A DNA stretch of 37,636 nucleotides from Nitrospirota bacterium (GTDB lineage Bacteria; JACPQY01), in the NCBI GenBank assembly GCA_016190245.1, contig JACPQY010000017.1, forward strand, positions 1 through 37,636, in the 5' to 3' direction. The stretch's first letter is position 1. Each line of letters starts with the position of its first letter. The notes beneath the pieces are model-generated. The model made no database searches and had not been told where the DNA came from. It saw only the letters and a list, made by a program, of their open reading frames with translations. Below, one piece after another: positions 108 through 35,709 of this stretch. A program made the position numbers and the translations under genes.

Positions 108-668
108 ATGAGTGAAATCAGCGCGAAGGATCCCGTCTGCGGGATGAGCGTGGAACCCGGGCACGAGGCGGCTCGGGCCGACCACGCGGGCAAGACCTAT
201 CTCTTCTGCTCTCCCGGATGCCGGGACACGTTTGCGAAAGACCCCGCGAAGTTCGCGAAAGGTGGGGCGGGCGAGGCTCCGAAGAAGAAGCGGTGGGGTC
301 TGTTCGGTATCGCGGTCCTCGCGCTCGCGGGGGCGGGAACGGGCCGTGCCCAAGGCGAGGCCGAGCCCACGCCGGCCGAGAAAGTGATCACGATCCAGGG
401 CGAGATCGTGGACACCACCTGCTACCTCCGACACGAGAAGAAGGGAACCGAGCACGCCAAGTGCGCCCTCATGTGCCTGCGCGCCGGGATTCCGATGGGC
501 TTGCTCGAAGACGGTACGGGAAAGGTGTACGTCTTCGTCTCGGAGTCCCACGGCAACCCGCACAAGGACATCGAGAAGTACCTTCTCAAGAAGGTGAAGG
601 TTACCGGCGCGCTGTACGAGCGCGGCGGGTTGTCGGGGATCGCCGCCCGGGCGATCACGGAGCTGTGA
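108..668 (+). CDS. YHS domain fused to an exported CYL/HxxCxxxC domain
   Basis: A 186-aa protein in three parts. Residues 1-50 are a YHS (TRASH-like) metal-binding domain with DPVCGM (C11) and FCSPGC (C34, C38). Residues 59-82 (KKKRW, a hydrophobic run, then GRAQG) look like a complete signal peptide or a single membrane helix. Residues 92-186 carry C105-Y-L and H116xxC119xxxC123, the domain found alone at 6426-6842. The start at 108 has a good ribosome site (GGAAGGAGG, 93-101). If the hydrophobic stretch is a membrane anchor, the YHS part is cytoplasmic and the second domain periplasmic, which would suit metal transfer across the membrane. YHS domains are known from copper ATPases and metal-binding proteins; the role here is inferred. 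Thirty-one bases separate it from the lipocalin gene downstream, so cotranscription is likely. Confidence 0.85.
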   Translation: MSEISAKDPVCGMSVEPGHEAARADHAGKTYLFCSPGCRDTFAKDPAKFAKGGAGEAPKKKRWGLFGIAVLALAGAGTGRAQGEAEPTPAEKVITIQGEIVDTTCYLRHEKKGTEHAKCALMCLRAGIPMGLLEDGTGKVYVFVSESHGNPHKDIEKYLLKKVKVTGALYERGGLSGIAARAITEL

Positions 669-699
669 GCCGCGCCCCCCGCGGAGAAAGGAGGTAGCC

Positions 700-1719
700 G
701 TGAACATGAGATACCACACTCCACGCGCCGGCTGGTTCGCGACCCTCGGCCTCGCGGTTCTGATGCGCGTTGCGCCCGTCAACGCGGCCCCGGCGGAAGA
801 GTTCCGACATCGTGACGCCACGGTGGAGAACTGGTCCGTGCACGGGCACCTGCGCGCGGAGGACGGAAGCGAGTGGGGCGTGACCGCCATGTTCTTCACG
901 GGCAAGTATCTGGTCCTCAGTGGGACGGCGGCGCTCATAGGCCTGGCCGACGTGGCAGCGAAGGCGCTCCATTTCGACTATGCGTTCTTCGTCCCGTTCC
1001 TTCAGAAGGTCCGATACGGAGACAACGGCCTCCTCGTCGAGTACGGCCGCTCAAGCCTCGTCCGCACCGGCCCGCAGACGGTGAGGCTCGACATGAGTGT
1101 GGGGACGACGGCCTCGGCGCTCGACCTGCAACTTCCCCATGAGCCCATGCCCTACGCGGGCATCGGCGAGAGCCGGTGGGCCAAGGGCCACGTTCGCGGC
1201 TACACGTTCATGGGGGCCAAGGCGTCGGGGACCCTTCGCATCGAGAAGCGGGCGGTCAAGGTCGAAGGCGCGGTCAATCTGGACCACGGCTGGGCCGGGC
1301 AGATGGGACACGATCACGACATGATGATGCTCGAGCTCGATGACGGAAGCTTCGTCAACGTCCTCTTCCGGCACCCCAGGAAGGGGGGATCCGCCCTCCC
1401 CGGAAGTTTCATGGATGTCGCCGATGCCGCAGGCACGAGAACGACTCGCACGACCTTCGCTGTCAACCGGGGCTCCATGTGGGAGAGCCCGGTGAGCGGC
1501 GCGCCGTATCCCGCCACCTGGACGCTGGTCGGGTCGGAGGCCGACACGCGTCTGAACTTCACGCCTGCGTTCGAGAACCAGGAGGTCAGCTTCCTTTTCG
1601 GTGCGATCGAGTTCTGGACCGGAGTCGGGCGGGTGGAGGGAGTGCTGGATGGGCGCCCCGTCTCGGGGCATTTCTGCGCGATGATGCAAGGGTACCAACG
1701 GGAAGGGGACGCGCCGTGA
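700..1719 (+). CDS. Exported AttH/CrtC-type lipocalin enzyme, copy A
   Basis: 339 aa. A signal peptide (about 1-31, ending VNAAPA) precedes a two-lobed lipocalin fold of the AttH/CrtC (carotenoid 1,2-hydratase-like) family. Family features visible: W45xxHGHL followed by DG, F65F66, a central DHGW (195-198) where the family has DHEWS, then LDDG (213-216), a WESPVSGxxYP segment, ENQE, and a final GHFCAMMQGY matching the family's G-Y-x-E-x-x-G-Y end. An extra cluster H204-D-H-D207 and MMM follows DHGW; it is shared in reduced form by copy B and could bind metal. CrtC hydrates acyclic carotenoids; most family members have unknown substrates. GTG at 700 follows AAAGGAGG by 5 nt; ATG at 706 is an alternative start. 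Confidence 0.8.
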   Translation: MNMRYHTPRAGWFATLGLAVLMRVAPVNAAPAEEFRHRDATVENWSVHGHLRAEDGSEWGVTAMFFTGKYLVLSGTAALIGLADVAAKALHFDYAFFVPFLQKVRYGDNGLLVEYGRSSLVRTGPQTVRLDMSVGTTASALDLQLPHEPMPYAGIGESRWAKGHVRGYTFMGAKASGTLRIEKRAVKVEGAVNLDHGWAGQMGHDHDMMMLELDDGSFVNVLFRHPRKGGSALPGSFMDVADAAGTRTTRTTFAVNRGSMWESPVSGAPYPATWTLVGSEADTRLNFTPAFENQEVSFLFGAIEFWTGVGRVEGVLDGRPVSGHFCAMMQGYQREGDAP

Positions 1720-1758
1720 GGAAACCTGGCCTGGGAGGAAACCGCAAAGGAGGCTGCC

Positions 1759-1809
1759 ATGTGGACCAGGCGACGGATGATCCTCGGCATGAAAGGAGCA
1801 GTGAAATGA
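1759..1809 (+). CDS. Possible 16-codon leader ORF before the YHS gene
   Basis: ATG at 1759 lies five bases after a strong AAAGGAGG (1746-1753) and encodes MWTRRRMILGMKGAVK. Its TGA (1807-1809) overlaps the ATG of the next gene at 1806 as ATGA, which would couple translation. It is far too short to judge by composition, and the next gene has its own ribosome site inside it (AAGGAG, 1793-1798). It could simply be chance. Confidence 0.3.
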   Translation: MWTRRRMILGMKGAVK

Positions 1810-2192
1810 ATGGAAGAGGAGCCTTCGCATCACTCATCACCCATCGCGCCTCACGATCGAGGGGCGTGATCGAGCCCATCACGGCCCTCGCGATCGCGGG
1901 CATGATTGTCATGATGGGTGCGTGCATCGGCATGGCCGTGTGGGGTGGCGGGAAGATGATGCAGATGATGCACGGCGATCATGAGAAGAGCGGGCACGAG
2001 AGCGGGAAGGAGCACGAGCCCGATTCCGCCGCGAAGAAGGCCGTGGACCCTGTTTGCGGCATGGAAGTGACCGTGAAGGAGGACACCCCCCAGATCACGC
2101 TGCGAGGCGAGACGTACTACTTCTGTTCCGAAGACGACATGAAGAAATTCGCCGCGGACCCGGAGCGGTACACCGGCCATGAGAAGAAGTAG
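1806..2192 (+). CDS. Membrane-anchored Met/His-rich YHS protein, copy A
   Basis: 128 aa. One hydrophobic Met-rich segment (about 20-48) is followed by a Met/His-rich linker (KMMQMMHGDHEK, then HESGKEHE) and a C-terminal YHS domain with DPVCGM, ETYYFC and an FAADPERY end. The second Cys of the usual CxxxC is replaced (FCSEDDM), so only two Cys remain. Met-rich plus His-rich segments next to a YHS domain fit Cu(I) or another soft metal, but this is inference. The start at 1806 has AAGGAG 7 nt upstream. Copy B at 7015 has identical length and architecture, and both copies adjoin an AttH-like gene. Confidence 0.85.
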   Translation: MNGRGAFASLITHRASRSRGVIEPITALAIAGMIVMMGACIGMAVWGGGKMMQMMHGDHEKSGHESGKEHEPDSAAKKAVDPVCGMEVTVKEDTPQITLRGETYYFCSEDDMKKFAADPERYTGHEKK

Positions 2193-2265
2193 AGGCAGGC
2201 TCATCCAATCCTTTCTTGGCGGGGGAGCTATCTTCCTCATCCTCGGGGCCGGAAAGGAGTTAAGG

Positions 2266-3461
2266 ATGAGGGACGGTGACTCGGTGAAGCGGTGGGTGAC
2301 CCTCGTATCGGGCGTGCTCTTGGCTTCGTGCGCCTCCATGGGTTCATTGCAGGGACCCTTCTTCCGCAAAACGGACTATCCGCGGTGGCAGATGATCGGC
2401 GCGGAGGAGAGCGATCTCGATCTCGCCGTTCAAGGGCGGGAGTCTCTGGATGACCTCGGGCGGGACGAGTGGGTCCAATTCTGGATGGAGCGTGGCCGCG
2501 GATTGGAGCGGGAGGCTCGGGTCCGGGAGGCTTCCGGGGATTCGCAATCCGCCGCGCGCACCTACTTCAGGGCGGCGGGCCATCACATCATCGCGATGTA
2601 CCCCCACAAAAGGATCAGTTCTCCGAAGGGCAAGGCGCACGAGGAGTCCGTTCGTATCTTCCTCAGGGGGGCGGCGCTGCTCGATGCGAAGTTCGAGAGG
2701 GTGGTTCTGCAGGAGAAGGGAGAGGAGGTTGTCGGATACCTCTTCCTCCCGAGGGGCCCCGGGCCGTCCGCTTGCGTGATCGTCTCGGGCGGCCTGGACG
2801 GATGGAAGGAAGAGGCCGTCTTGTGGACGCTGCCGATGGCGCACGATTTCATGCCGCCGGTTTCGCGGCGTTCTACGTAGACATGCCGGGCACCGGTGAG
2901 AATACCTTCAGGCTGGGTCCCGACGGTGGCCGGGCGTACGGTCTGGTCATCGATCATCTCGTGGGACGAGCCGAGATCGATTCGTCAAGGCTGGGCGTCG
3001 TGGGCGTCAGCTTCGGAGGGTACTGGGCCACGTGGCTGGCTATCCACGAACCTCGGATCAGGTCCGTCGTCAACGTGGGCGGGCCGATCCACGGCGCCTT
3101 TGCCACCATGAGCTACCTCAAATTGCCGAATGTGCTTCGCGAGGCTTTGAAGGCATCCTTCGGGATGCGCTCGGTCTGGGGGCTCTATGGAATCACGAGA
3201 CGGATGTCGCTCAAGGCGGACCTGGACAAGATCACCGTACCCTATCTCGTGATCAACGGCACCGAAGACTCGATCGTCCCCCCCGAAGATGTTTGGGTGG
3301 TGCTCCGAACCGGATTGAGGCGTGATGCAATCCTTTTCCCAGGAGAGGATCACTGTGCCGTCGGACGTTTGGAATCGGACATCTTGCCCGCCGTTCGGGA
3401 TTGGTTCCTCCGGACACTGGGTCCGACCGACCTGGGGGGCAAGAGCCGGAACAGCCCATGA
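2266..3461 (+). pseudogene. Alpha/beta-hydrolase lipoprotein with a frameshift
   Basis: ATG at 2266 (GGAAAGGAG at 2251-2259) opens a protein with a lipoprotein signal ending LLASC. An alpha-helical N-terminal region and the first strands of an alpha/beta hydrolase follow (VSGGLDGWK). The frame runs out at 2880, while the rest of the same protein continues in the +1-shifted frame to 3461: HAAGFAAFYVDMPGTGEN, nucleophile elbow GVSFGG, acid loop NGTEDSIVP and histidine GEDHC. One missing C after 2850 (TTC-ATG instead of TTC-CAT) explains the break. The fold resembles FrsA/DUF1100-type esterases with an N-terminal helical cap. All three catalytic residues lie after the break. It may be a real mutation or a base-calling error. 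The end overlaps the next start as ATGA. Confidence 0.8.
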
Positions 3462-4963
3462 GCATGCAGACGAGGCGCGGGATGGGGGCAGCGTCTCACA
3501 GGCTCGGCCTCGCATCGGTGGCTTTTCTGGCAGCAGGCATCGTCTTCACCGGCTTCACCCCGGCCGTCGCGGCGACCGACCTCCTCATCACCAACGCCCG
3601 ATTGATCGATGGCACAGGCGCGCCGCCCCGGGAGAACCTCTCGATTTTGATTCGGGGAGGTCGAATCCTGACCGTGGGACCGGATGTGCAGGCTGCGGGA
3701 CTGCCGGTCCTCGATGTGGCCGGCGCCACCGTACTCCCCGGTCTGATCGATGCGCACGTCCACATGAGTTGGGCTCCCGGTCAATCGTTTCGTCGAGATC
3801 TTCCTGAAACGATCACGGCTCTTCGCGCCCGACACCTTCGGGGATATCTCGCAAGCGGGGTCACGACCGTTGCGGACACGGGCGCCTCGCCGGAGGCCAT
3901 CCACTCCATACGTGAGATGATGGCGTCGGGCGTCCCGGGACCGAGGTTCCTCGCGATGGGGTGGGCGCTCGTGCCGGCGGGAGGATGGGACTCCCCGGGG
4001 GAAACCGCCGCCGTGGCCGGCGAGTCGGACGTTGAGGCGCGGCTCGATGAAGTGGTGAGACTCGGAGGGGTCGGCGTCAAGGTCGCCCTCGAGCGCGGTT
4101 GGGGACCGATCAAGACCTACGAACTCCTCTCTCCCGAAATCCGCAGGGCAATCGCGGATGGCGCCGCCCGGCGGGGTCTGCCGGTCTTCATTCACGCGAC
4201 CAATCCGCCGGATCAAGTAGCTGCGCTCCAGATGAAGCCGCGCGCACTGACCCATACCGTCATCGATCTGACCGGGCTTACCTCCGGCGATCTGCTTTCG
4301 CCGGAGTTCGTCCGAGACATGGCAGCGTCGGGGACATACCAGATCACAACCCTTTCCATCGTGGATGCGTACCTTGTGGAATTTGAACCTTCCCGCCTGG
4401 ACGACGCTTTCCTCAATCTCGTCGTGCCTGAGGTCGAGTTGCAAACGGCGCGAGACCCGCGGGTGGGGCGGGCGCAAGCACGGGCCCTCATCCACATGGG
4501 TGCTCCCTGGCTCCCCTCAATCTTCGAGGCGTGCGTGGCCCGCATGACGTTCAGGAAGTCGGCCGTGCGTCGGGCGCTCCGGCGGGCGCAGTGGTCTGTG
4601 AAACAGCTCTTTGAAGCAGGTGTACCCATCGTGGTCGGGAGCGATACGCCATCGCTGCCCCAGTTCGCCGTCGGCGCGTATCAGTTCCACGGTTTCTCCA
4701 CCATCCGGGAGATGGAGCTGCTGGGAGAAGCGGGGCTGCCTCCGATGACCATCGTGCAGTCGGCCACCCGAATACCCGCGGAGATGCTGGGAATTGCCAA
4801 CGACGTTGGAACCGTTGAAATCGGAAAGCGGGCGGATCTTGTCATCCTGCGGGCCGATCCGCTCGTGGACCTGCGCGCGCTGAAGACCGTGCTGTGGACT
4901 GTCCGCGATGGCGTGGCGCGAACACCCGAGGAATGGATTGGAAAAAAGGAGGTGAAACCATGA
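3458..4963 (+). CDS. Exported metal-dependent amidohydrolase
   Basis: 501 aa. An N-terminal signal sequence (MSMQTRRG, a hydrophobic run ending PAVAA) precedes an amidohydrolase/imidazolonepropionase-like protein. It has the typical small beta-domain start (LLITNARLIDGTG), the metal-site strand LIDAHVHM, later metal or substrate residues IHATN and ALTHTVIDL, and GSDTPSLP holding the conserved Asp. It ends with KRADLVILRADPLVDL returning to the beta-domain. Relatives hydrolyse cyclic amides, dipeptides or xenobiotics; the substrate cannot be told. The ATG overlaps the stop of the hydrolase gene (ATGA), and its stop overlaps the next start in the same way, so it is part of a coupled chain. Confidence 0.85.
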   Translation: MSMQTRRGMGAASHRLGLASVAFLAAGIVFTGFTPAVAATDLLITNARLIDGTGAPPRENLSILIRGGRILTVGPDVQAAGLPVLDVAGATVLPGLIDAHVHMSWAPGQSFRRDLPETITALRARHLRGYLASGVTTVADTGASPEAIHSIREMMASGVPGPRFLAMGWALVPAGGWDSPGETAAVAGESDVEARLDEVVRLGGVGVKVALERGWGPIKTYELLSPEIRRAIADGAARRGLPVFIHATNPPDQVAALQMKPRALTHTVIDLTGLTSGDLLSPEFVRDMAASGTYQITTLSIVDAYLVEFEPSRLDDAFLNLVVPEVELQTARDPRVGRAQARALIHMGAPWLPSIFEACVARMTFRKSAVRRALRRAQWSVKQLFEAGVPIVVGSDTPSLPQFAVGAYQFHGFSTIREMELLGEAGLPPMTIVQSATRIPAEMLGIANDVGTVEIGKRADLVILRADPLVDLRALKTVLWTVRDGVARTPEEWIGKKEVKP

Positions 4964-5625
4964 GCCAGATCGTTGCCACGGATCCCCGGTGCCACGTGAT
5001 GGAACAGGGGTTCTCGAAGCCCCCCTGTCCCAGCCCCGGAGGCTCCGTCGGGGACTCGAAGAGCACGTCCGTGCCTGCGCAGACGTGGGGCCTCTTGGGT
5101 GCCCTGCTTGTCCTCCTTGTGCTGCCGGCCTGTCCCGAGCGGCCTCTCACGGTGGAGCGCGCAGCGGATCGGATCGCGCACGGCCAACTCGTCACGGATC
5201 GCACCAAGGTGTGCATGATCCAGGAGAGCCTGATGTTGCAGCCGGGGATACCCGTCACGTACGCCGGGAAGACCTACCACCAGTGCTGCGCGGGCTGCGC
5301 GGCGCGCTTCATGCAGGATCCGGCCCGCTACTCCAAGGCGCGCGATCCCGTCTCCGGCGCTGATGTGGACAAGGCGGACGCGTACCTCTACGCGCGGGAA
5401 GGGCGGGTCTTCTTCTTCCAAACTTTGGAGAACGTGATGGCGTTCGATCGAGATCCGCAAAGCCATCTCCGCGTGCCCCGGCCGCATGCGGAGCCGATGC
5501 CCGGAGCCATGGGGGGTGGTGCGGCGGGTTCTCCCGAGCAAAGTTCCACCCAACCTGCACCGCCGGGCGGCGAGCCACAAGAGATGGGTGCAACGGAACT
5601 TCCCACCAAAGGATCTCCCGACTGA
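4960..5625 (+). CDS. YHS-like lipoprotein with degenerate tandem YHS units
   Basis: 221 aa, with a strong ribosome site AAAGGAGGTGA (4946-4956). A hydrophobic run ending VLPAC is a lipobox-like site, but about 40 residues precede it, including DPRCHVM, which looks like a degenerate YHS opening. A later GTG at 5071 would give a standard lipoprotein signal but has no ribosome site. After the anchor come TKVCMIQESLML, GKTYHQCCAGC and FMQDPARYSKA, a YHS-like unit, then RDPVSGADVDKADAYLY and FFFQTLENVMAFDRDP, a second unit lacking Cys. The C-terminal 50 residues are Pro/Gly-rich and probably disordered. It is likely an envelope metal-binding protein by analogy with YHS domains. The start overlaps the previous stop (ATGA) and the stop overlaps the next start (TGATG). 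Confidence 0.75.
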   Translation: MSQIVATDPRCHVMEQGFSKPPCPSPGGSVGDSKSTSVPAQTWGLLGALLVLLVLPACPERPLTVERAADRIAHGQLVTDRTKVCMIQESLMLQPGIPVTYAGKTYHQCCAGCAARFMQDPARYSKARDPVSGADVDKADAYLYAREGRVFFFQTLENVMAFDRDPQSHLRVPRPHAEPMPGAMGGGAAGSPEQSSTQPAPPGGEPQEMGATELPTKGSPD

Positions 5626-5846
5626 TGGAGGCGCGCGAGCTCCGAATCCACCGACTGGCCGGCATTCTCGGCGTCTTCGGAATGTTCCTCGGCGTCCTGG
5701 CGGCCCTCGCCCCTCCGCCTTTTCGCCTGGCACTGGTCGTCACGGTTTTCAACGGCTCCCTGATGATCGTTTACATGATCTCCACGATCGTTCTGTGGAA
5801 TCGCCTTCGGGCAGATCGGACCACGATGGATGGAGGCGCGGCGTGA
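5625..5846 (+). CDS. Small two-helix membrane protein
   Basis: 73 aa with two predicted membrane helices (about 12-31 and 36-58) and short charged ends. No family recognised. The start shares one base with the upstream stop (TGATG) and the stop overlaps the following GTG (GTGA). This spacing argues that it is real and translated with its neighbours. It may anchor or scaffold the neighbouring lipoprotein; no function can be assigned. Confidence 0.65.
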   Translation: MEARELRIHRLAGILGVFGMFLGVLAALAPPPFRLALVVTVFNGSLMIVYMISTIVLWNRLRADRTTMDGGAA

Positions 5847-6325
5847 TAGCGGTCTCGAACGCGGTGTGGCTCTTCGTCGCGGCACTTGCCCTCGCGGCGA
5901 AGCCTGCCGTGGCCGATGAGACCGCCGCACCGGAGCCGGCGCACGAACATGGTCACTCCATAGGTGAGGACGCGGAGCGGGAGCTATCCTACTTGTTTGG
6001 CTTGACCGGTCGGGCCGTCTTTGTTGGGCGCGCGGCGGTGGACGCCATTCTTCACTATGACGTCCTCGAAGAGCACTTCATTCCCGAAGCCGGCATCGTG
6101 GCGCGGATATGCGGCGATCTCTTCTCGACGGTCGATGCGCGGGCGACGATCGGTGACGACAACTCAGCCACTCTGCTGCCCGGTCTCAAGTACAGGGTGT
6201 TGAAGGCAAGGAGCAGGTTCTTGTCGGACGGTTTCTTGGGCCTGGGCTACCAGTTTTCTGTGGCGGGAGATACCGCGTTTGACAACCAGGTCTGCGTGCA
6301 ACTCGAACTGGGGCGTCATGGATGA
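5843..6325 (+). CDS. Secreted beta-rich protein of unknown function
   Basis: 160 aa from GTG at 5843, chosen because it overlaps the upstream stop as GTGA and opens a clean signal peptide (IAVSNAVWLFVAALALAAK, cleavage near AVADE). The mature part begins with a His-rich stretch (HEHGHS) and then alternates polar and hydrophobic residues in strand-like runs, such as LKYRVLKARSRFLSDG and LGYQFSVAGD, ending VQLELGRHG. This resembles a small outer-membrane beta-barrel or a barrel fragment. No family recognised. It closes the coupled chain that begins at 3458. Confidence 0.6.
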   Translation: MIAVSNAVWLFVAALALAAKPAVADETAAPEPAHEHGHSIGEDAERELSYLFGLTGRAVFVGRAAVDAILHYDVLEEHFIPEAGIVARICGDLFSTVDARATIGDDNSATLLPGLKYRVLKARSRFLSDGFLGLGYQFSVAGDTAFDNQVCVQLELGRHG

Positions 6326-6425
6326 GTCGTGAGATGACGGTTCCACAGAGGCCGGGCGGGGGTGAAGAAGGCGCCCTCCCGAGCGGCTCCGCAAGAAAGC
6401 GCCAGACAACCGAAAGGAGAAACAC

Positions 6426-6842
6426 ATGAAACGCATGATCGGAGTGGCGGCCGCGGCGGTGTTCACCCTCGCGGGCACGGCCCTGGCCGGAGAGAAAGTG
6501 ACCCTTCAGGGCGAGGTGCTCGATTCCGCGTGCTATCTGGCGGAAGGAGAAAAGGGGAAGGCCCACGAGAAGTGCGCCCAGATGTGCCTCAAGAAAGGCG
6601 TCCCGGCCGCGCTTCTGACGGACGATGGGAAGGTCCTGCTTCTGACGGCGAAGCACGGAAGCGAAGCCCTCTACGACGAGTTGAAAAAGCTCGCAGCCCA
6701 ACGCATCGAGATCACGGGAGAAAGGATCGAAAAAGGCGGAATGGCGGCGATTCAACTGGAAACGATCAAGGGGATTAATGTGTCCTCTCCGTCGAGCGAG
6801 AAACATGCCGAGGAAGGCCACATGGGCGGACACATGCACTGA
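6426..6842 (+). CDS. Exported CYL/HxxCxxxC-domain protein
   Basis: 138 aa. A signal peptide (MKRMIG, hydrophobic run, cut near ALAG) precedes a domain starting VTLQGEVLDSACYL, then HEKCAQMC, KKGVPAALL, an LLLT strand, a lysine-rich helix and IEITGERIEKGGM. It matches the C-terminal half of the fusion at 108-668 over its whole length. The tail is His/Met-rich (HAEEGHMGGHMH), a common metal-binding ending. The three conserved Cys and one His suggest a metal or redox site. I recognise the sequence pattern but no characterised function. AAAGGAGA lies 5 nt before the ATG. Confidence 0.8.
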   Translation: MKRMIGVAAAAVFTLAGTALAGEKVTLQGEVLDSACYLAEGEKGKAHEKCAQMCLKKGVPAALLTDDGKVLLLTAKHGSEALYDELKKLAAQRIEITGERIEKGGMAAIQLETIKGINVSSPSSEKHAEEGHMGGHMH

Positions 6843-6868
6843 GAACAAGTTCCAAACCGCGAGGGACA

Positions 6869-6976
6869 GTCCCCTCACCCCAGCCCTTTCCGCCCGTCCG
6901 TCCGCCGTGGCGGACTGGACAGGCGGGGAGGGTGGCCGCCGCGTCCGCCCAGCGGCGGAGAGGCCGGGTGAGGGAC
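6869..6976. repeat. Nested palindromic intergenic element
   Basis: GTCCCCTCACCC (6869-6880) pairs with GGGTGAGGGAC (6966-6976) around an inner perfect stem GTCCGCC-GT-GGCGGAC (6900-6915). CCGTCC and GGAC runs flank the inner stem. The element fills most of the 172-bp gap between two genes on the same strand. It may be a mobile palindromic repeat or a processing/attenuation site. The inner GGCGGA stem also appears in the hairpin block at 14307. Confidence 0.6.
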
Positions 6977-7014
6977 TCGAAACTCGGATGAGAAACCAAC
7001 CAGGAGGTGATGTC

Positions 7015-7401
7015 GTGAAAGCAATCGTGATGAAGGCGCTGTGGAAGCTCCGGTTGTCGGGGCCGGGATCGAGAGCGGGTGTGATCGAGCCTGTCTCCGC
7101 CGTGGCCATCGTGGGCATGGTGGTGATGATGGGCGCCATGATGGGCTTCATGATCTGGGGCATGCCCAAGATGATGGGCATGATGCACGGGGATCATGAG
7201 AAGAAGGAGCACGAGGCGAAGGGCGAGCATCGCCCTGAGGAATCCGCGCAGAAGGCCGTTGACCCGGTCTGCGGCATGGAGGTCGAGGTGACGGACAAGA
7301 CCCCGAGCGTGACGCTCGAAGGCCGCACGTACTACTTCTGTTCCGAAGAGGACATGAGGAAGTTCGTCGAGTCGCCCGAGAAGTACAGGAAGGAGGAGTA
7401 G
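7015..7401 (+). CDS. Membrane-anchored Met/His-rich YHS protein, copy B
   Basis: 128 aa, the same length as copy A. GTG at 7015 was chosen because AGGAGG (7002-7007) sits 7 nt before it; an in-frame ATG at 6988 precedes that site and is unlikely. The helix begins with GVIEPVSAVAI, like GVIEPITALAI in copy A, and is very Met-rich (MMGAMMGFMIWGMPKMMG). It is followed by HGDHEKKEHEAKGEH, then a YHS domain with DPVCGM and TYYFCSEEDM lacking the second CxxxC cysteine. The gene order CYL, YHS, lipocalin here mirrors fusion, lipocalin, YHS in copy A. Probable cytoplasmic-membrane metal-binding protein; the metal is unknown. Confidence 0.85.
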   Translation: MKAIVMKALWKLRLSGPGSRAGVIEPVSAVAIVGMVVMMGAMMGFMIWGMPKMMGMMHGDHEKKEHEAKGEHRPEESAQKAVDPVCGMEVEVTDKTPSVTLEGRTYYFCSEEDMRKFVESPEKYRKEE

Positions 7402-7404
7402 GTC

Positions 7405-8466
7405 ATGGGATGGCGTGCCCGATTGACCGTACCGGTACTTCTCGTCGCCTTACTTCCGCTGACCGCCTCGGCCCAGGAGTACGTTCCCGAGGAGGGATCT
7501 CACCAGGGTGCCAAGATGGAGATGTGGAACCTGCACGGTCACCTGTTCACTCCCGACGGCCGGGCGTTCGGACTCACGACCATGTTCTTCAACGGGAAGT
7601 ATCTTGTCGTGTCCGGAACGGCCATCGGCCTGGGGCTCACCGACGAACAGGACAAGAAGTCGGCGTTCGAATACGACTTCTTCCTGCCCCTGTTCGGAAA
7701 GGTGGTTCACACGCCCGGGCAACTGGACGAGCGGTACGGTCCCAACCACATCCGGCGCGTCGGCTCCGACGCGTACGAGCTTTCCATCCGGATGGATTCC
7801 CTGCGGGCGGACCTCGCCATCCGCACCACCCGTCCACCGCTGCCCTATGCCGGCACGGGTCTCGTCAGGTGGGAGACGCACGAGTCGAGGGGCTACTCCT
7901 TCCCCCGGGCGCAGGTCACGGGGGAAATTGCGTGGAAGGGGGCGTTGTATCCTGTGACCGGCCACGTAAACATGGACCACGCTTGGTCCAACGCGATGGA
8001 GGAGGACCACGACCTGTTCATGGTTCAACTGGACGATGGGACGGATGCGAACGTGCTGTTTCGGCACGATCGGGCGGGGAAGGGGCCCCTGCCGGGGAGT
8101 TTTGTCGCGCTCGCTTTCCCCGACGGGCGGCGGGTCTCGTACGATTCTTTCGACGTGTCCATCGAGGGCAAGTGGAAGAGTCCCAAGACGGGAAGGTTCT
8201 ATCCCAACCGTAAGCGCATACGTGTGCCGGACGAGTCGCTCGAATGGGGTCTGCTCCCGTCGTTTGACGATCAGGAGTTCGCGATGATGATGAACATGAC
8301 CACGTCGAATGCAGCCCGTCCTGGGCTGCTTCATTTCGTGGTCCCATACCTTCCCTGGCAAGGGATGGCCTTCTGGGCGGGGACGGGCACCGTGGCAGGG
8401 GCCGGAGCGGATGGCGCCGTGAAGGGCCGGTACTGCGGCGTTCTGCAAGGGTACGGGAAAAAGTAG
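7405..8466 (+). CDS. Exported AttH/CrtC-type lipocalin enzyme, copy B
   Basis: 353 aa with a signal peptide (cut near ASAQE, residue 23). Family features: MWNLHGHL (40-47) followed by DG, F61F62, DHAWS (191-195), DHD (201-203), LDDG, WKSPKTGRFYP, DDQE, AFWAGTGTV, and the closing KGRYCGVLQGY. These match the AttH/CrtC hydratase-like fold better than copy A does. A short insertion with MMMNMT follows DDQE. The gene starts 3 nt after the YHS stop, with AGGAGGAG inside the end of that gene. Repeated pairing of this enzyme with a YHS protein suggests a common pathway. Substrate unknown; hydrophobic or isoprenoid molecules are plausible from the family. Confidence 0.85.
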   Translation: MGWRARLTVPVLLVALLPLTASAQEYVPEEGSHQGAKMEMWNLHGHLFTPDGRAFGLTTMFFNGKYLVVSGTAIGLGLTDEQDKKSAFEYDFFLPLFGKVVHTPGQLDERYGPNHIRRVGSDAYELSIRMDSLRADLAIRTTRPPLPYAGTGLVRWETHESRGYSFPRAQVTGEIAWKGALYPVTGHVNMDHAWSNAMEEDHDLFMVQLDDGTDANVLFRHDRAGKGPLPGSFVALAFPDGRRVSYDSFDVSIEGKWKSPKTGRFYPNRKRIRVPDESLEWGLLPSFDDQEFAMMMNMTTSNAARPGLLHFVVPYLPWQGMAFWAGTGTVAGAGADGAVKGRYCGVLQGYGKK

Positions 8467-9147
8467 ATGGATCGTCTGTCTCACGGGCCCGGCCGCCCTT
8501 CACAGGAAGCGCCGCAGCTCTATCAGGTCCTCCCTCCGGCGAAGTATGATTTCCTCACACCGCTCTACGATCTCGGGTGCCGGTTGTTCGGCATTGGGCC
8601 GCGTTTCCGCGACTCGATCATCGGTCATCTGGACCTCCGCGGAGGCGAATCCATCTTGGACGCGGGTTGCGGCACAGGCGTCCTTGCCGTTCGGATCAAG
8701 GAGAGATGGCCGTCTGTGACCATGATGGGGCTCGACCCGACGCCGTCCGCCCTCGCGATCGCCCGCAAGCGGGCCGCGAAAAGGAACGTGGCCGTGGATT
8801 GGAAGGAAGGATTCGCCGAGGCGCTGCCGTTCACCGATGTGTCGTTCGACCGGGTGGTGACATCGCTCGCGTTCCATCACATTCCCGGCGACAAGAAGAT
8901 CGCGGCCCTTCGCGAGTGTCTTCGGGTCCTCAGGCCGGGTGGCCGCCTCCTGCTGGTGGATTTCTGCGAACGGGACACTCTTGGCGCGCGGATCTTCCTC
9001 GGGCTCGTGATCGGCCAGGAACACCTCGGAGACCAGGTTGGGAAGCTCGGTGCCTTTCTCGAGGAGGCTGGATTCGCCGGCGTGCGCCGCGTGCATCGTG
9101 CCCACCTCGGCATCGGCTTCTACATCGGCGAGAAGAAGCCGGCGTAG
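8467..9147 (+). CDS. SAM-dependent methyltransferase (UbiE-like class I)
   Basis: 226 aa. Motif I LDAGCGTG (64-71), acidic loop MGLDPTPSA, ALPFTDVSFDRVV, FHHIPGDKK, and motif III-like LRVLRPGGRLLLVDF are those of the UbiE/COQ5-like class I fold. The N-terminus PAKYDFLTPLYDLGC resembles quinone or phospholipid methyltransferases. It begins directly after the lipocalin stop with no gap, so it is cotranscribed. The substrate may be the same lipid- or isoprenoid-like compound handled by the lipocalin enzymes; this is inference. Confidence 0.85.
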   Translation: MDRLSHGPGRPSQEAPQLYQVLPPAKYDFLTPLYDLGCRLFGIGPRFRDSIIGHLDLRGGESILDAGCGTGVLAVRIKERWPSVTMMGLDPTPSALAIARKRAAKRNVAVDWKEGFAEALPFTDVSFDRVVTSLAFHHIPGDKKIAALRECLRVLRPGGRLLLVDFCERDTLGARIFLGLVIGQEHLGDQVGKLGAFLEEAGFAGVRRVHRAHLGIGFYIGEKKPA

Positions 9148-9190: not shown

Positions 9191-9892
9191 ATGGAACCGC
9201 AGGAGGCCCTCGAAGGGTATTCGAGATCCGCAGGACAGTACGACCAATTGATCGAGTTCTACTTCCGGCGACTGCTGAGGATCAACGACGTGACGTATCG
9301 GAGCGAGGCCGTGGACATGCTCGGCCTCAAGGAAGGGGACAGGGTGGCGGATATTGGCTGCGGGACGGGCCTCAATTTCGAGCACGTCTTGCGCAAGATC
9401 GGCGCGAGCGGTCGGCTGGTCGGTCTGGATTACACCCCGGCCATGCTCGAACGGGCGGAGGCGCGGGCGAGAAGTCAGGGATGGAGCAACGTCCGCCTGG
9501 TGAGGGGCGACGCGCAGAAGGCATCCGATCTCCTCCAAGGCCCCTTCGACGCGGTCCTCAGCACCTTCTGCATGAGTCTCGTTCCTTCCCCGAAAACGGT
9601 CTTCCGGGAGGTCGCGCGCGTTCTCAGGCCGCAGGGAAGGTTCGCCGTGTGTGACGCCCAACAGATCGTGCCGAAGGGACCCTTGGGACTGCTCGCACCC
9701 GTGGTGAGGCCCGCCGTGGCCTTCGTTCTTCGCAAGTACGGCCAGTCCAATCCGGAAGCCGATTATGGTCGGCCCCGACCCTGGAAGACCATGCTCACCG
9801 ATGTATTCGACGGCGTGAATTTCGAGGAACGATACTGGGGCATCCTCTTCATCGCGAGCGGAGTCAGGCGCGGCGATGAGAAGGCCTCATAG
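9191..9892 (+). CDS. SAM-dependent methyltransferase (class I), second copy type
   Basis: 233 aa. Motif I ADIGCGTG (53-60), GLDYTPAMLERAEARA, a GDAQ loop, FDAVLSTFCMSLVPSP, and VARVLRPQGRFAVCD. It differs clearly from the upstream methyltransferase, so it is not a recent duplicate. The C-terminal half has a hydrophobic segment (LGLLAPVVRPAVAFVL), which may contact membrane or a hydrophobic substrate. The ribosome site is GGGAGG at 9179-9184. It is the last gene of the cluster before convergent toxin-antitoxin genes. Confidence 0.85.
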   Translation: MEPQEALEGYSRSAGQYDQLIEFYFRRLLRINDVTYRSEAVDMLGLKEGDRVADIGCGTGLNFEHVLRKIGASGRLVGLDYTPAMLERAEARARSQGWSNVRLVRGDAQKASDLLQGPFDAVLSTFCMSLVPSPKTVFREVARVLRPQGRFAVCDAQQIVPKGPLGLLAPVVRPAVAFVLRKYGQSNPEADYGRPRPWKTMLTDVFDGVNFEERYWGILFIASGVRRGDEKAS

Positions 9893-9956: not shown

Positions 9957-10355
9957 TCAAGCGAGGGCCACGACGCCGGAGCGCCGGATCCGTTCGTCGG
10001 CGGTCAGCAACCGCAGGCCGTGACATCGGGCGGTGGCGGCAATGATCTGGTCCGCCGGGTCCGTGGGGAACGTGGGCCCCAGGCGGGTGCTCTCCATGGC
10101 GATGCGGGCGGTGAGAGGGAGGATCTGCACGGCGGGATCGTTCTCGACCTCCTCCAGGAACGCATCCGCTGAACCGGTGAAGATCAGGCGGCCGCGGGAG
10201 GCCAGCATGGCGACCTCCCACAGCGAGAAGGCGCTGATCCCGATCGGCTCACCGCGTTTTGCCGAGCCGTCGATCGCGTTGGCAAAGGCGGGCGGCAGTG
10301 CCGAATCGTCTATCCACCACCACACCAGGACGTGCGTGTCGAGGAGGAGCTTCAA
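9957..10355 (-). CDS. PIN-domain toxin (VapC-like), module 1
   Basis: 132 aa. PIN-fold ribonuclease with the N-terminal acidic strand LLLDTHVLVWW, central SLWEVAML, and PADQIIAATA near the C-terminus, the usual Mg-binding acidic residues. The start is TTG at 10355, overlapping the antitoxin stop as TTGA, exactly where family members begin (MKLLLDTH). It is expected to cleave RNA when not bound by its antitoxin. It is convergent with the methyltransferase gene to the left. Confidence 0.9.
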   Translation of the reverse strand: MKLLLDTHVLVWWWIDDSALPPAFANAIDGSAKRGEPIGISAFSLWEVAMLASRGRLIFTGSADAFLEEVENDPAVQILPLTARIAMESTRLGPTFPTDPADQIIAATARCHGLRLLTADERIRRSGVVALA

Positions 10356-10627
10356 GCCTTGGTCGCTTCGAACAGATCGGCCCAGTCGCCGTGCACGATG
10401 TCACCCGTCACCTGGACGAGCCCCTTCCATCGGCCTCGGGGCGAGCGTGAAGCCTCCTGGATGGGCACGAGCCGGGCCACCGGCCGGCCGTGCTTCGTGA
10501 TGACATACCGCCGGCCCTCTGAGCGGGCAGTTTCGACCAGTTCAAGGCAGCGAGCCTTGAAGTCGCTCACACTCAAGAGATCCCTGCGGCGGTGGACATC
10601 CGGTCGAGGCGACGCCTTGAGGACCAT
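10352..10627 (-). CDS. Phd/YefM-family antitoxin, module 1
   Basis: 91 aa. It has the Phd/YefM N-terminal DNA-binding fold (SVSDFKARCLELVE, YVITKHGRPVARLVP) and a flexible toxin-binding tail (GDWADLFEA). It overlaps the toxin start by 4 nt. A promoter with a palindromic operator lies directly upstream, and its -10 ends 6 nt from the ATG, so the message is probably leaderless. Confidence 0.9.
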   Translation of the reverse strand: MVLKASPRPDVHRRRDLLSVSDFKARCLELVETARSEGRRYVITKHGRPVARLVPIQEASRSPRGRWKGLVQVTGDIVHGDWADLFEATKA

Positions 10628-10804: not shown

Positions 10805-10903
10805 ATGCCTGAATCAGTCGTGTTGGACCCGCATGAGGGGGGCATGCCCCAGGTTGTCACGCATGAGTTCGGGGCGTACGCTCTGGAGAGGAAGGGTTCG
10901 TGA
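10805..10903 (+). CDS. Possible 32-aa small protein upstream of merT
   Basis: ATG at 10805 lies 6 nt after AAGGAG and encodes a 32-residue acidic/neutral peptide beginning MPESVVLDPHEGGMPQ. Its TGA overlaps the merT GTG as GTGA. No family recognised. The ribosome site and exact overlap favour a real gene, but the length makes this uncertain; it could also be a decayed regulator or a coupling leader. Confidence 0.4.
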   Translation: MPESVVLDPHEGGMPQVVTHEFGAYALERKGS

Positions 10904-11268
10904 GCACTGTCGCGAAAAACAGCCGAACTCTCAAGGCCGGCCTCGCGGCCTCGGTCGCCGCCGCGTTCGCCGCTTCAATGTGTTGCCTCGGCCCGGCGCT
11001 CTTCATCGCTGCGGGGGGGCTCATCACGGCATCGGTCGGGAGCGTATTCGAGACGCTTGCGGCGTGGCGGCCGGTCTTCATCGCCGCTTCGCTGGGCTTC
11101 CTTGGGCTCGGCTACTGGTACGTCTATCGGGGCCGGAAGTCCGCCGAGGCGTGCGAAACGGGCACGTGCACGCCCAAGAATCCGGTAAACAAGTTCATGA
11201 TGGGGACGGTGGCCGTGATCGTTGCCGTGCTGGTCACATCTCCCTACTGGCTGGCCGGGCTGGCGTGA
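10900..11268 (+). CDS. merT: Mercuric ion transport protein MerT
   Basis: 122 aa, close to the usual MerT length of about 116. Three membrane helices; the first has the vicinal cysteine pair MCCLGP (C28, C29). The cytoplasmic loop has the second pair (ACETGTCTPK), and the middle helix follows WRPVFIAASLGFLGLGYWYVYR. MerT passes Hg(II) from periplasmic MerP to the cytoplasm. GTG at 10900 has GAGAGGAAGG upstream. It pairs with the MerP-like gene 23 nt downstream. No merA reductase or merR lies next to it. Confidence 0.85.
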   Translation: MSTVAKNSRTLKAGLAASVAAAFAASMCCLGPALFIAAGGLITASVGSVFETLAAWRPVFIAASLGFLGLGYWYVYRGRKSAEACETGTCTPKNPVNKFMMGTVAVIVAVLVTSPYWLAGLA

Positions 11269-11291: not shown

Positions 11292-11591
11292 ATGAGAGGC
11301 GTTTTGCTTGCGTTGTTTCTGGTGGCGGGTTTGAGCCTGCCCGCGGTGTACCCGGCCTTTGCCGGCGAGGAGAAGTCCTGCACTCTGAAGGTGGAGGGCA
11401 TGACGTGTGATGCGTGCGAGAAGCACGTGAAGAAGGCCCTGGACAAGGTCGAGGGGGTCAAGGACGCGAAGGTCGAGGTGAAGGCGAAGAAAGCCATCGT
11501 CACATACGACGTGGAGAAGACCAATCCCGACGCCATCGCCAAGGCCATCACCGACGCCGGCTACGAGGCCAAGGTGGAAGAGAAGTCCTGA
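11292..11591 (+). CDS. merP: Periplasmic MerP-like heavy-metal-binding protein
   Basis: 99 aa. A signal peptide (cut near AFAGE, residue 24) precedes one HMA domain, with VEGMTCDAC (C39, C42), EKHVKKALDKVEGV and DAIAKAITDAGYEA. Position after merT and export argue for MerP; the motif GMTCDAC is also seen in copper chaperones, so copper is possible. GGAAAGGAG (about 11277-11285) precedes the ATG. An extra Cys (C30) lies just before the domain. Confidence 0.85.
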   Translation: MRGVLLALFLVAGLSLPAVYPAFAGEEKSCTLKVEGMTCDACEKHVKKALDKVEGVKDAKVEVKAKKAIVTYDVEKTNPDAIAKAITDAGYEAKVEEKS

Positions 11592-11634: not shown

Positions 11635-11671
11635 TTGAAATCATCTGACCGGTCAGATAGACTGGTCAGAT
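11635..11671 (+). promoter_or_regulatory. Promoter and operator of Phd/PIN module 2
   Basis: TTGAAA (11635-11640), a 17-nt spacer, and TAGACT (11658-11663). The spacer holds the perfect 16-bp palindrome ATCTGACCGGTCAGAT (11643-11658), and a further half-site TGGTCA follows at 11663-11668. The -10 ends 6 nt before the ATG at 11670 with no ribosome site, so the transcript should be leaderless. Confidence 0.65.
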
Positions 11672-11912
11672 GAGAACGATCACGGCGACCGAGTTCAAGG
11701 CCAAGTGCCTGGCCCTCTTGGATGAGGTCCAGAAGACGGGTGAGCCGATCACGGTCAGCAAGCGGGGCAAGCCGGTCGCTCAAGTCGTGCCCCACATTCA
11801 GTACGAAGGGAAGTACCCCCAAGACTCGTTGAAGGGAACCGTGGAGGTGCTCGGCGATATTATCGAGCCGGCCATTCCTCTCGAAGACTGGAACATGTTG
11901 AGGGACGACTGA
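11670..11912 (+). CDS. Phd/YefM-family antitoxin, module 2
   Basis: 80 aa. TATEFKAKCLALLDEVQ and ITVSKRGKPVAQVVP are the Phd/YefM DNA-binding fold; the tail LEDWNMLRDD would bind the toxin. It resembles the module 1 antitoxin in both halves. Its stop overlaps the toxin's first codon as CTGA. It is probably autorepressed through the palindrome upstream. Confidence 0.9.
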   Translation: MRTITATEFKAKCLALLDEVQKTGEPITVSKRGKPVAQVVPHIQYEGKYPQDSLKGTVEVLGDIIEPAIPLEDWNMLRDD

Positions 11913-12301
11913 AACTTCTCCTCGACACGCACGTTCTGATCTGGATGGTCGAGGAGAAGACGCGGATCCCCATGAGGGCGCGAACGGCCATCGAAACAGC
12001 GGAAGGTCCCCTGCTTGTGGCTGACATGAGCCTTCTGGAAATCGCCACCGCTGTCGGTCGCGGGCGCATGCGATTTCGCGTTCCCTTGAGAGACTGGTTG
12101 GAACGGGCGACGTCCCCTCCCTTGGTTCGGCTGTGCCGGATCACTCCCGCGGTGGCTGCGGAACTCGTCCATCTCCCATCGGATTTTCCCAAGGACCCCG
12201 CTGATCGCATCATCGTCGCCACGGCCCGTGTCCTGGGAGCGACCCTCGCCACGATGGACACCACGATCATCCGCTCCCGCGCGGTTCCCACGCTGAGCTG
12301 A
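11909..12301 (+). CDS. PIN-domain toxin (VapC-like), module 2, probable CTG start
   Basis: 130 aa from CTG at 11909. This codon was chosen because the family N-terminus (KLLLDTHVLIW) begins right there and overlaps the antitoxin stop as CTGA, the same geometry as TTGA in module 1. The first ATG, at 11945, would remove the acidic active-site strand. Other PIN motifs: MSLLEIATA and PADRIIVATARVLGATLATMD. A weak start could keep toxin below antitoxin; this is inference. Confidence 0.8.
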   Translation: MKLLLDTHVLIWMVEEKTRIPMRARTAIETAEGPLLVADMSLLEIATAVGRGRMRFRVPLRDWLERATSPPLVRLCRITPAVAAELVHLPSDFPKDPADRIIVATARVLGATLATMDTTIIRSRAVPTLS

Positions 12302-33305: not shown

Positions 33306-33767
33306 ATGATTAGCGAGACAGATCCAATACTTAGTATCGGTGTCGTGGCCAGAATGGCGGGTGTCAGCACCCACACGATTCGACTATACGAGCGAGAGGG
33401 ACTTCTTCGCCCCTCAAGAACAGAGACCGGCCGGAGGCTCTACGCTGGCGTTGATGCGGACCTTGTTCGAGCCACACGCCGACTGCTGGCCGAACGTCTC
33501 AATTTCTCCGGAATCCGCAGGCTTTTTGCCTCGATCCCATGCTGGTCCTTCAAGCCGTGCTGCATCCCCAGACTCGGGCGATGCACGATCCAGGACCGGC
33601 CGGAGTGGCCGTGTTGGAGTGTTGAGGATAGCTGGTGCCGTCGCACCGGACAGGTGTGTCAGACGTGTCGAGTTTACAAAATGGCGACAGAGATTGATAA
33701 TGTGCGCTCGAATTGGGATCAGACGCTGAGGGAGGGGCGTGGGGACTTGCTGCAGCGCGCGGCCTGA
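33306..33767 (+). CDS. MerR-family regulator with a Cys-rich (two-CW-like) C-terminus
   Basis: 153 aa. The MerR winged helix is LSIGVVARMAGVSTHTIRLYEREGLL with RRLYAGVDADLV. After a short helix, the C-terminal 75 residues hold about eight Cys in a CWSFKPCC, GRC, PCWSVEDSWC, VCQTCRVYK pattern. The repeated CW motif and the CxxCxVY ending are known from small Cys-rich proteins and could hold an iron-sulfur cluster or zinc. Inducers cannot be told; redox or nitrogen/sulfur oxide signals fit the siroheme reductase encoded next. AGGAAAGG (33290-33297) precedes the ATG. Confidence 0.85.
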   Translation: MISETDPILSIGVVARMAGVSTHTIRLYEREGLLRPSRTETGRRLYAGVDADLVRATRRLLAERLNFSGIRRLFASIPCWSFKPCCIPRLGRCTIQDRPEWPCWSVEDSWCRRTGQVCQTCRVYKMATEIDNVRSNWDQTLREGRGDLLQRAA

Positions 33768-33798: not shown

Positions 33799-35709
33799 AT
33801 GGCTGATTCGTTGGAGGAACTGAGAAGCCGCGAGGGCGTTTCGAGGCAGGGGCCTGTGCCCGCCGCCCAAGGTGGCGCAGGACGTGCCCCCGCCGGCGGC
33901 GGGGAGTGCGGTGCCCCCACCGGGCCCGCCGAGGAGATGAAACCCCTTTGGTCGCGCTACCGCACGCACGCTTGGGGAACGACGGGGAAGGATCGCGCGA
34001 CTGAGCAGCAGGAGGAGATATCGACGCTCGAGTACTACATCCACGAGTTTCTCAACGGCCGCCTTGACGAAGACAAGTTCAAGCCCATGCGCCTCTACAT
34101 GGGCATCTACGGCCAGCGTCAAGGCGGCACCAACCAGATGGTTCGGATCAAGATCCCCTTCGGCCGGCTCACCGCGGACACTCTCGATCGGATCGCGGGG
34201 TGCGCGGAGAGGTATACCCCCCGTCGGATGGCCCATGTGACCACGCGCCAGGACCTCCAACTGCATTTCGTAAAGCTCCAGGATGTGCCGGCGCTCCTTC
34301 GAGAGCTGGCCAGGGGCGGGGCGACAACGCGCGAGGCGTGCGGCAACACCGTGCGCAACGTGACCGGTTGCCACCGCCTGGGCGTGTGCCCGTCCGAGCC
34401 CTTCGATCTCACGCCCTACGCAGACGCCGTGTCCGCCTTTTTCCTGCGCAACCCCGATTGCCAAAACCTGCCCCGCAAGTTCAAGATCGCCTTTTCGGGC
34501 TGCCCGAACGACTGCGCGGCGGGTTCGATCCACGACATCGGCGTGTTCGCGCAGGTGAGGGAGGAGGGCGGCAGGACGACGTGCGGCTTCCGACTCCTCG
34601 TGGGAGGGGGATTGGGCGCCGCGCCCCGCTCCGCCCGCCTGTTCGCGGATTTCCTGCCCAAAGAGCTTCTCCTTCCCACGATGCGCGCCATCGTGAGGGT
34701 TTTCAACAGGACCGGGAACCGGAAGAACCGCTACCGGGCGCGAATGAAGTTCGTCCTTCAGACACTGGGGTGGGAGCGGTTCGTCCAGGAGGTGCAGAAG
34801 GAGCGTGAGGCGGTCTTGCGCGAGGCCCTGCCCGATCTGCCCGATCCCGTGCCGAATCCCTTGCACGGAAGTGAGGCGAAGGCGGAGAGCGTCACCCGCG
34901 GGCTTCCCGCAGGCGTGATGGATCGCGACTGGTTCGAGAACGCCTGCGAACCCCAGCAGCAGCCGGGGCGGTACCTGGTGAATCTCTTCCTCTACCGGGG
35001 CGATGTCACCACGGCCCAGATGCGGGGACTCGCCGCCTTGCTGCGCCGCCATTCCGAGATCGAACTGCGCCTGACGTTCCAGCAAAACATGGCGCTGCGC
35101 AACGTCAGCGAGGGGAAGTTGGCGGCCGTGCATGCCCATCTCGCGGCTCTCGGTCTCGCCTCCGCAGCGGCTGAGACGTCGGCCGACGTGACCGTCTGCC
35201 CCGGCGCGGACACCTGCAACCTCGCGAAGACCCACTCGATGGCGCTTGGCGCCTTCCTGGCCGATCGGATGAAATCCGGCGCGGCTGTCAACGGCTATCG
35301 GATCAAGATCAGTGGCTGCGAGAATTCCTGCGGGCAGCATCACATCGCGGACCTCGGTTTCTATGGTTGCATCCGCAAGGTGGGCGGTCGGATCGTGCCT
35401 CACTACGTGATCATGATCGGCGGCAGCGTCTCGCAGGATGGGGCGACGATCGGTCGCGAGGTCCTGAAGATTCCCTCCCGGAGAATCGGCGAGGCCGTGG
35501 AGAGACTGGCCGACCTCTACCTCAAGGAGAAGGCGGCCGGAGAGTCGTTCGGAGCCTACCTGCGGCGGGTGGATCGGGACCGCGTCCGCGCCGCCCTGAA
35601 GGACCTCGCTCAGTTGCCGCCCTACGAGGAGGCGCCCGATCTCTATCGCGACCTCGGCGAGGAGCAGGAGTACGAGTTCGTGGAACGGGCAGGGGAGTGC
35701 GCCGCGTGA
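33799..35709 (+). CDS. Siroheme nitrite/sulfite reductase
   Basis: 636 aa. Duplicated nitrite/sulfite reductase fold. The siroheme/[4Fe-4S] motif in the second half is VCPGADTC (C467, C473) with SGCENSC (C507, C511) and GQHHIADLG. The first half has NVTGCHRLGVC and SGCPNDCAAG. Substrate-side residues (VTTRQDLQLH) are typical of ferredoxin-type NirA/Sir enzymes. There is a 45-residue Gly/Pro-rich N-terminal extension. It reduces nitrite to ammonia or sulfite to sulfide in the cytoplasm. The transporter encoded next would supply an anion. Which substrate is used cannot be settled from sequence alone. AAAGGGAG lies upstream of the ATG. Confidence 0.88.
   Translation: MADSLEELRSREGVSRQGPVPAAQGGAGRAPAGGGECGAPTGPAEEMKPLWSRYRTHAWGTTGKDRATEQQEEISTLEYYIHEFLNGRLDEDKFKPMRLYMGIYGQRQGGTNQMVRIKIPFGRLTADTLDRIAGCAERYTPRRMAHVTTRQDLQLHFVKLQDVPALLRELARGGATTREACGNTVRNVTGCHRLGVCPSEPFDLTPYADAVSAFFLRNPDCQNLPRKFKIAFSGCPNDCAAGSIHDIGVFAQVREEGGRTTCGFRLLVGGGLGAAPRSARLFADFLPKELLLPTMRAIVRVFNRTGNRKNRYRARMKFVLQTLGWERFVQEVQKEREAVLREALPDLPDPVPNPLHGSEAKAESVTRGLPAGVMDRDWFENACEPQQQPGRYLVNLFLYRGDVTTAQMRGLAALLRRHSEIELRLTFQQNMALRNVSEGKLAAVHAHLAALGLASAAAETSADVTVCPGADTCNLAKTHSMALGAFLADRMKSGAAVNGYRIKISGCENSCGQHHIADLGFYGCIRKVGGRIVPHYVIMIGGSVSQDGATIGREVLKIPSRRIGEAVERLADLYLKEKAAGESFGAYLRRVDRDRVRAALKDLAQLPPYEEAPDLYRDLGEEQEYEFVERAGECAA

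Follow-up and report, generated by a model that had tools for sequence, protein, structure and literature searches.

CYL, an undescribed exported OB-fold family recurring beside CusA-type efflux pumps, in a cluster of paired envelope genes of a Nitrospirota bacterium

The CusCBA-type pump with accessory metal proteins is a known type of system for the efflux of Cu(I) and Ag(I). SilF and CusF, which pass metal to such pumps, use one His, two Met and one Trp at one end of the barrel as ligands, and they have been stated to be the only proteins of the OB (oligonucleotide/oligosaccharide-binding) fold with metal binding as sole function (PMC10656224). Here we describe a gene cluster at 0.1–9.1 kb of a 37,636-base stretch of DNA from a Nitrospirota bacterium (the window), which is the entire contig C2 of a metagenome-assembled genome (MAG), G000, that is 84.8% complete. 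The cluster encodes exported lipocalins of the AttH/CrtC kind (AttH), YHS proteins anchored by a transmembrane (TM) helix (TM-YHS) and a small domain named CYL (Table 1). The CYL is an undescribed exported OB-fold family that recurs beside efflux pumps in several bacterial phyla. Our preferred reading, held with modest confidence, is that the cluster supplies the accessory genes of an operon for Cu(I)/Ag(I) efflux of the CusCBA type, with CYL as its new core component and a CusF-like hand-over of the metal.

The link between CYL and efflux genes is new and strong. The CYL was found in 22 of 386 broadly sampled genomes and in 58 of 247 genomes of the phylum Acidobacteriota, and a CusA-type gene lies no more than 10 kb away in 12 of 32 CYL genomes, against 0.29 expected (P 6e-16). 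The excess is seen again in the broad sample once the family of the window is removed (7 of 19 against 0.22, P 4e-9) and in an independent draw of Acidobacteriota (8 of 57 against 0.43, P 2e-8). These expectations were derived from genome sizes and CusA counts under uniform placement and independence of genomes, which makes the P-values too optimistic, although the enrichment is 20- to 40-fold. Among cultivable bacteria, Thermoflavifilum thermophilum DSM 14807 has one CYL, with no CusA in its vicinity. Other metal genes also stand near CYL. A gene of the metal-sensitive repressor family adjoins it in locus L080, an HMA-like protein lies between CusA and CYL in L036, and the copper island of a Bryobacter (L037) has a P-type ATPase with YHS and HMBD domains, a multicopper oxidase and a DUF411 protein in its vicinity. 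Twice, CYL is fused to a metal-binding domain, namely to YHS in the window and to HMBD in L084, where an open reading frame (ORF) with an HMA domain follows. In a Bryobacter genome, a second, different small exported protein with a similar TDTMC...C...C pattern is encoded between CusA and CYL (L039:9531-9857), and it is perhaps a sister family of CYL.

In Pfam and NCBIfam, CYL had no match over cut-off and only a weak one to DUF5818, and the CusF family models of both matched none of 17 CYL members. Neither a PDB sequence search with the CYL profile nor a search of plasmid records with one CYL protein as query gave a match; a search with few terms in the libraries and open-licence papers returned neither CYL as a pump-linked OB-fold family nor its YHS or HMBD fusions. 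In the 17-member alignment D33, C36, G44, H47, C50, A51, C54, G58 and G98 are invariant, the series D, C, G, H, C, A, C, G being near-invariant throughout. The C/H/C/C set, spaced as C-x(10 or so)-H-x2-C-x3-C, is kept in 40 of 41 CYL sequences, and the sole exception lacks all four residues together, as is expected if they form one site. The N-terminus is signal-peptide-like. The AlphaFold2 model of CYL2 has an OB fold (predicted local distance difference test score, pLDDT, 84; mean 90 or more over residues 21-110), in which two short helices after strand 1 bear the C/H/C/C residues. Foldseek with this model returned OB folds, including SilF (apo and Cu(I)) and YgiW, while SilF and CusF were absent among the 50 matches listed by a second comparison with VIA-align, which decides nothing because the OB fold is too common. 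From the model we are reasonably sure of the OB class, and the fold is silent on function. Like CusF and SilF, CYL is small, exported, of OB fold and encoded with a Met-triad CusA-type pump of the resistance-nodulation-division (RND) kind (in the window, by synteny), whereas its C/H/C/C residues sit on a helical insert that follows strand 1, and no sequence relation to them was found.

The pump itself was found in G001, the only other genome of the same family that turned up in the sample. There, a homologue of each window gene type stands in one run directly behind a CusCBA-type operon, and the order on contig C51 is TolC, membrane fusion protein (MFP), CusA, CYL, a YHS-methyltransferase fusion, double-YHS, TM-YHS and an AttH remnant, with a second methyltransferase slightly beyond the cluster. 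The proteins encoded directly upstream of the cluster in G001 are a CusB-type adaptor with an HMBD domain and an HME4-like CusA (a Cu(I)/Ag(I) RND pump), which have a colinear fragment in the window's MAG and none in the window itself, where unit 1 of the duplicated cluster begins at the contig edge. The fragment is contig C81, which ends in a colinear hydrolase-TolC-MFP-CusA run, cut after CusA residue 465. Given the G001 run behind CusCBA and the cut inside CusA, the window most probably represents the operon's accessory portion, and C2 would continue after C81.

The CusA of G001 matches E. coli CusA with 1036 bits, aligned over its length, and keeps M573, M623, E625 and M672, which coordinate Cu(I) in structures of CusA from cryo-electron microscopy (PMC8092243). 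The Met triad and Glu were read in the G001 protein, the G000 fragment ending before those positions, and the helix motif AIGALVDAAVVVVENAHK is common to both. The kept Cu(I)-site residues together with AIGALVDAAVVVVENAHK indicate Cu(I)/Ag(I) and not divalent ions. An earlier note on this DNA had placed the cluster in the envelope and given it a metal theme; both are borne out, and the theme can now be named as CusCBA-type Cu(I)/Ag(I) efflux. The MFP-CusA stretch has 90.8% DNA identity between the two genomes (L100:14056-16438 in G000, L008:10466-12851 in G001) and the CusA fragment 98% protein identity, with flanking genes at 68-74%, by recent exchange or unusual constraint.

Another metal comes into view downstream, where a MerT-like protein and an HMA protein are encoded in the same direction at 1 kb distance, and with them the cluster could be mainly a mercury or mixed soft-metal island. 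However, an oppositely oriented toxin-antitoxin-like pair intervenes, no MerA was recognised among the window ORFs read, and the CusA of G001 has the Met triad of Cu(I)/Ag(I) pumps; we hold a mercury island to be very improbable.

In the preferred CusCBA reading, three kinds of protein would capture Cu(I)/Ag(I) in the envelope, namely CYL, the YHS proteins with a membrane anchor and the lipoprotein with two YHS halves. The C/H/C/C residues on the helical insert of CYL would bind a thiophilic ion, Cu(I) or Ag(I), the YHS proteins with their Met/His-rich linkers would hold these ions at the inner membrane, and the captured metal would be passed to the CusB/CusA pump, in the manner of CusF/SilF. 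The YHS-TM-CYL fusion (108-668) would span the inner membrane with a metal domain at either face. By hydropathy it has a single hydrophobic segment after a KKKR stretch, with six K/R before and one after, and the predicted topology has YHS inside and CYL outside. The YHS domains are those of the YHS/TRASH metal proteins (PF04945), including metal P-type ATPases, and they score 52.6, 47.0, 49.9 and 42.4 bits, all above the Pfam gathering cut-off of 30.3; the same domain is ATPase-borne near CYL in L037. In contrast to known YHS proteins, they are here TM-anchored with a Met/His linker, or part of a fusion with CYL or (in G001) with a methyltransferase. The lineage may have elaborated the module by domain shuffling and paralogy, joining YHS to CYL in the window and to a methyltransferase in G001. 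The double-YHS gene has relatives in copper-type loci L156 and L158. The AttH lipocalins and methyltransferases would be lineage-specific additions, which, as a guess, protect the lipids of the envelope or modify them during copper stress.

Several points weigh against the CusCBA reading. About two thirds of the CYL loci lack a CusA at a distance of 10 kb or less, in part because contigs are short, and the link of C2 to CusA rests on synteny. The best structural matches of the CYL model are other OB folds, namely SSB, RPA and PriB (Z about 8), with SilF not specially close, and CYL lacks the His/Met2/Trp set of CusF, having no conserved Trp or Met pair. Furthermore, a c-type cytochrome (Pfam Cytochrom_C 9e-11) adjoins CYL in at least five loci (L009, L079, L081, L083 and L086), which suggests a broader redox role. 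These neighbours are the main support for the proposal that CYL is redox- or cytochrome-linked, that its Cys/His site binds Zn or an Fe-S/haem cofactor or forms disulfides and that its Cus linkage reflects co-regulation by oxidative or copper stress and not a hand-over of metal; C/H/C/C is also a usual structural zinc set, which counts in the same direction. The strong CusA linkage in two draws and the fusions of CYL to metal-binding HMBD and YHS speak against this proposal, and we regard it as rather unlikely.

The earlier note had further suggested that YHS, AttH and CYL make up a separate functional module. All three occur twice in the window and once in G001, where AttH is decayed to a remnant. 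Outside the window's family, AttH and CYL co-occur at chance and are never adjacent. The AttH is present in 41 of the 386 genomes and CYL in 22, and both are present in four, two of which are the window's family; the other two compare with 2.03 expected, and in them AttH and CYL are separated by about 150 kb or lie on different contigs. Among the CYL loci outside the window, the stored flanks contain AttH only in G001 and a clear YHS only in G001 and L037, where the YHS domains belong to or adjoin the metal P-type ATPase. None of 14 AttH loci elsewhere has CYL, YHS or CusA nearby. Chance co-occurrence and the lack of adjacency elsewhere show that the lipocalin is not part of a conserved module; AttH is found with CYL only in this one bacterial family. 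A module of the three is largely refuted, and we give it very little weight. The neighbourhood comparison that the note had called for thus set the lipocalin apart and brought out a strong CYL-efflux link. Plasmid records gave AttH only distant Caballeronia/Eleftheria matches (25-28% identity), and no paper linking YHS with a lipocalin was found in the open-licence literature.

Compatible with the CusCBA reading is the proposal that only CYL and YHS belong together, the proximity of AttH and methyltransferases being incidental. About 6 of the 14 AttH loci elsewhere stand beside large FtsX-like permeases (by sequence reading, no Pfam run), an association with LolD has been reported for the AttH protein NE1406 (PMC2954199), and the methyltransferases are generic enzymes. 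Nevertheless, two genera have both an AttH and a methyltransferase in the cluster, and the methyltransferase of G001, 76% identical to that of the window, is fused to a YHS domain. We consider an incidental proximity a serious possibility, somewhat short of probable.

The window lipocalins resemble AttH (2ICH, NE1406) and CrtC, a carotenoid 1,2-hydratase, in carrying both PF07143 and PF17186 over cut-off, and 2ICH is the only clear PDB relative. They differ from other AttH/CrtC proteins in having no adjacent FtsX/ABC partner, in lying in a metal cluster and in being only about 25% identical to the others sampled. The catalytic residues of CrtC from R. gelatinosus are His239, Trp241, Tyr266 and Asp268, in His-x-Trp and Tyr-x-Asp motifs (PMC4717167). 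A DH-x-W motif is shared (H192 and W194 in AttH2), an Asp pair comes after it, and no Tyr was assigned. In the G001 AttH (L008:17094-17469), about 38 N-terminal and the C-terminal 80 residues are left and the middle is deleted.

The duplication that drew attention to the cluster consists of real homologous pairs in differing order, far beyond chance. The two AttH share 35% identity over 325 aa (E 2e-68), the two TM-YHS 63% over 107 aa (E 1e-43) and the two CYL 36% over 126 aa (E 2e-21), and the two CYL and two AttH genes of the window are the only ones found in the MAG. The count of two per family stands for AttH, TM-YHS and CYL, whereas YHS had been under-counted, since the fusion carries one and the double-YHS gene at 4960-5625 had been missed. 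The three pairs differ in age. The TM-YHS2 is about as close to its G001 counterpart (64%) as to TM-YHS1 (63%). In a tree of 41 sequences, CYL2 groups with the two CYLs of G001 (97/83) and CYL1 falls outside that group. A sister relation of the window CYLs was rejected by the approximately unbiased (AU) test (p=0.0275), and a clade of all four CYLs of G000 and G001 was neither supported nor rejected (AU p=0.19). As the CYLs are not nearest relatives and the pairs are of unequal age, the two units are of mixed history and not one duplicated block, in agreement with the view of the earlier note that this is no simple recent tandem duplication.

In the double-YHS gene of G001 (L008:16113-16604), an in-frame TGA at 16317 coincides exactly with a codon that specifies Cys in the gene of the window (YHQ[C]CAGC; window counterpart about 5263-5300), and the frame is open and conserved for about 95 codons past it. 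The G001 has selenocysteine tRNA (tRNA-Sec, 73 bits) and SelB (370 bits), both over cut-off, and the window's MAG has neither over cut-off, which makes an exchange between Cys and Sec likely. Alternatively, the TGA could be a nonsense mutation, as the neighbouring AttH of G001 is decayed. No significant simple fold was seen at the UGA (z -0.86), and the known YHS selenoprotein family NF041384 has a different motif, GxU (PMC13188914).

Table 1. Genes of the cluster and its downstream neighbours in the window, with the basis of each assignment.
Feature	Position	Strand	Basis and remarks
YHS-TM-CYL fusion	108..668	+	Pfam YHS 4.5e-14 at residues 7-51; CYL pair alignment; hydropathy
AttH1, exported two-domain CrtC/AttH lipocalin	700..1719 (start 700 or 706)	+	PF17186 (Lipocalin_9) 1.2e-10; PF07143 (CrtC) 2.1e-6
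TM-YHS1	1806..2192	+	Pfam YHS 2.5e-12; N-terminal TM helix, Met/His-rich linker MMQMMHGDHEKSGHE, YHS
Double-YHS lipoprotein-like protein	4960..5625	+	Pfam YHS 3.3e-13, two stretches; YHS/TRASH-like halves (CMIQES...YHQCCAGC)
CYL2, exported OB-fold domain with C36, H47, C50, C54	6426..6842	+	Alignment, AlphaFold2 model, structure matches, tree
TM-YHS2	7015..7401	+	Pfam YHS 7e-11
AttH2, exported CrtC/AttH lipocalin	7405..8466	+	PF07143 3.5e-12; PF17186 6.3e-10; PDB 2ich Putative AttH E 3.7e-10
S-adenosylmethionine (SAM) methyltransferase	8467..9147	+	Methyltransf_25 2.3e-25; 76% identity to methyltransferase part of G001 YHS-methyltransferase fusion
Second SAM methyltransferase	9191..9892	+	Methyltransf_31 9.9e-24; weak homologue (39%) near G001 cluster
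MerT-like membrane protein	10900..11268	+	Pfam MerT 1.4e-14; cluster membership uncertain
Exported HMA-domain protein	11292..11591	+	Pfam HMA 1.2e-19; cluster membership uncertain

Arsenite methylation was rejected as a name for the two methyltransferases, which reach 84.7 bits, below the ArsM cut-off of 263. Between the two units, an FrsA-like alpha/beta hydrolase (2266-3461) is split across two frames, with the N part reaching to 2880 and the C part running from about 2823, by a frameshift that is due to mutation or assembly error. From a look at the sequence only, two VapBC-like toxin-antitoxin pairs (9957-10627 and 11670-12301) flank the MerT/HMA pair, and a MerR-type regulator with a Cys-rich C-terminal half (33306-33767) lies upstream of a sulfite/nitrite reductase-like gene (33856-35709).

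To our knowledge, a chaperone has yet to be recognised for many operons of the CusCBA type outside Proteobacteria. Being widespread and encoded beside the pump, the hitherto unnamed CYL family, with its OB fold and its set of thiols and histidine, is a direct and testable candidate for this role. We propose tentatively, and with less confidence than the operon reading itself, that CYL could be a third OB-fold family of metal chaperones, serving pumps of the CusCBA type in many phyla, analogous to CusF/SilF but built on a different, Cys/His-based metal site, and that its fusions could cross the inner membrane with metal domains at both faces. If CYL is a metal chaperone, what has been stated of SilF and CusF alone among OB-fold proteins (PMC10656224) would have to be widened to include it.

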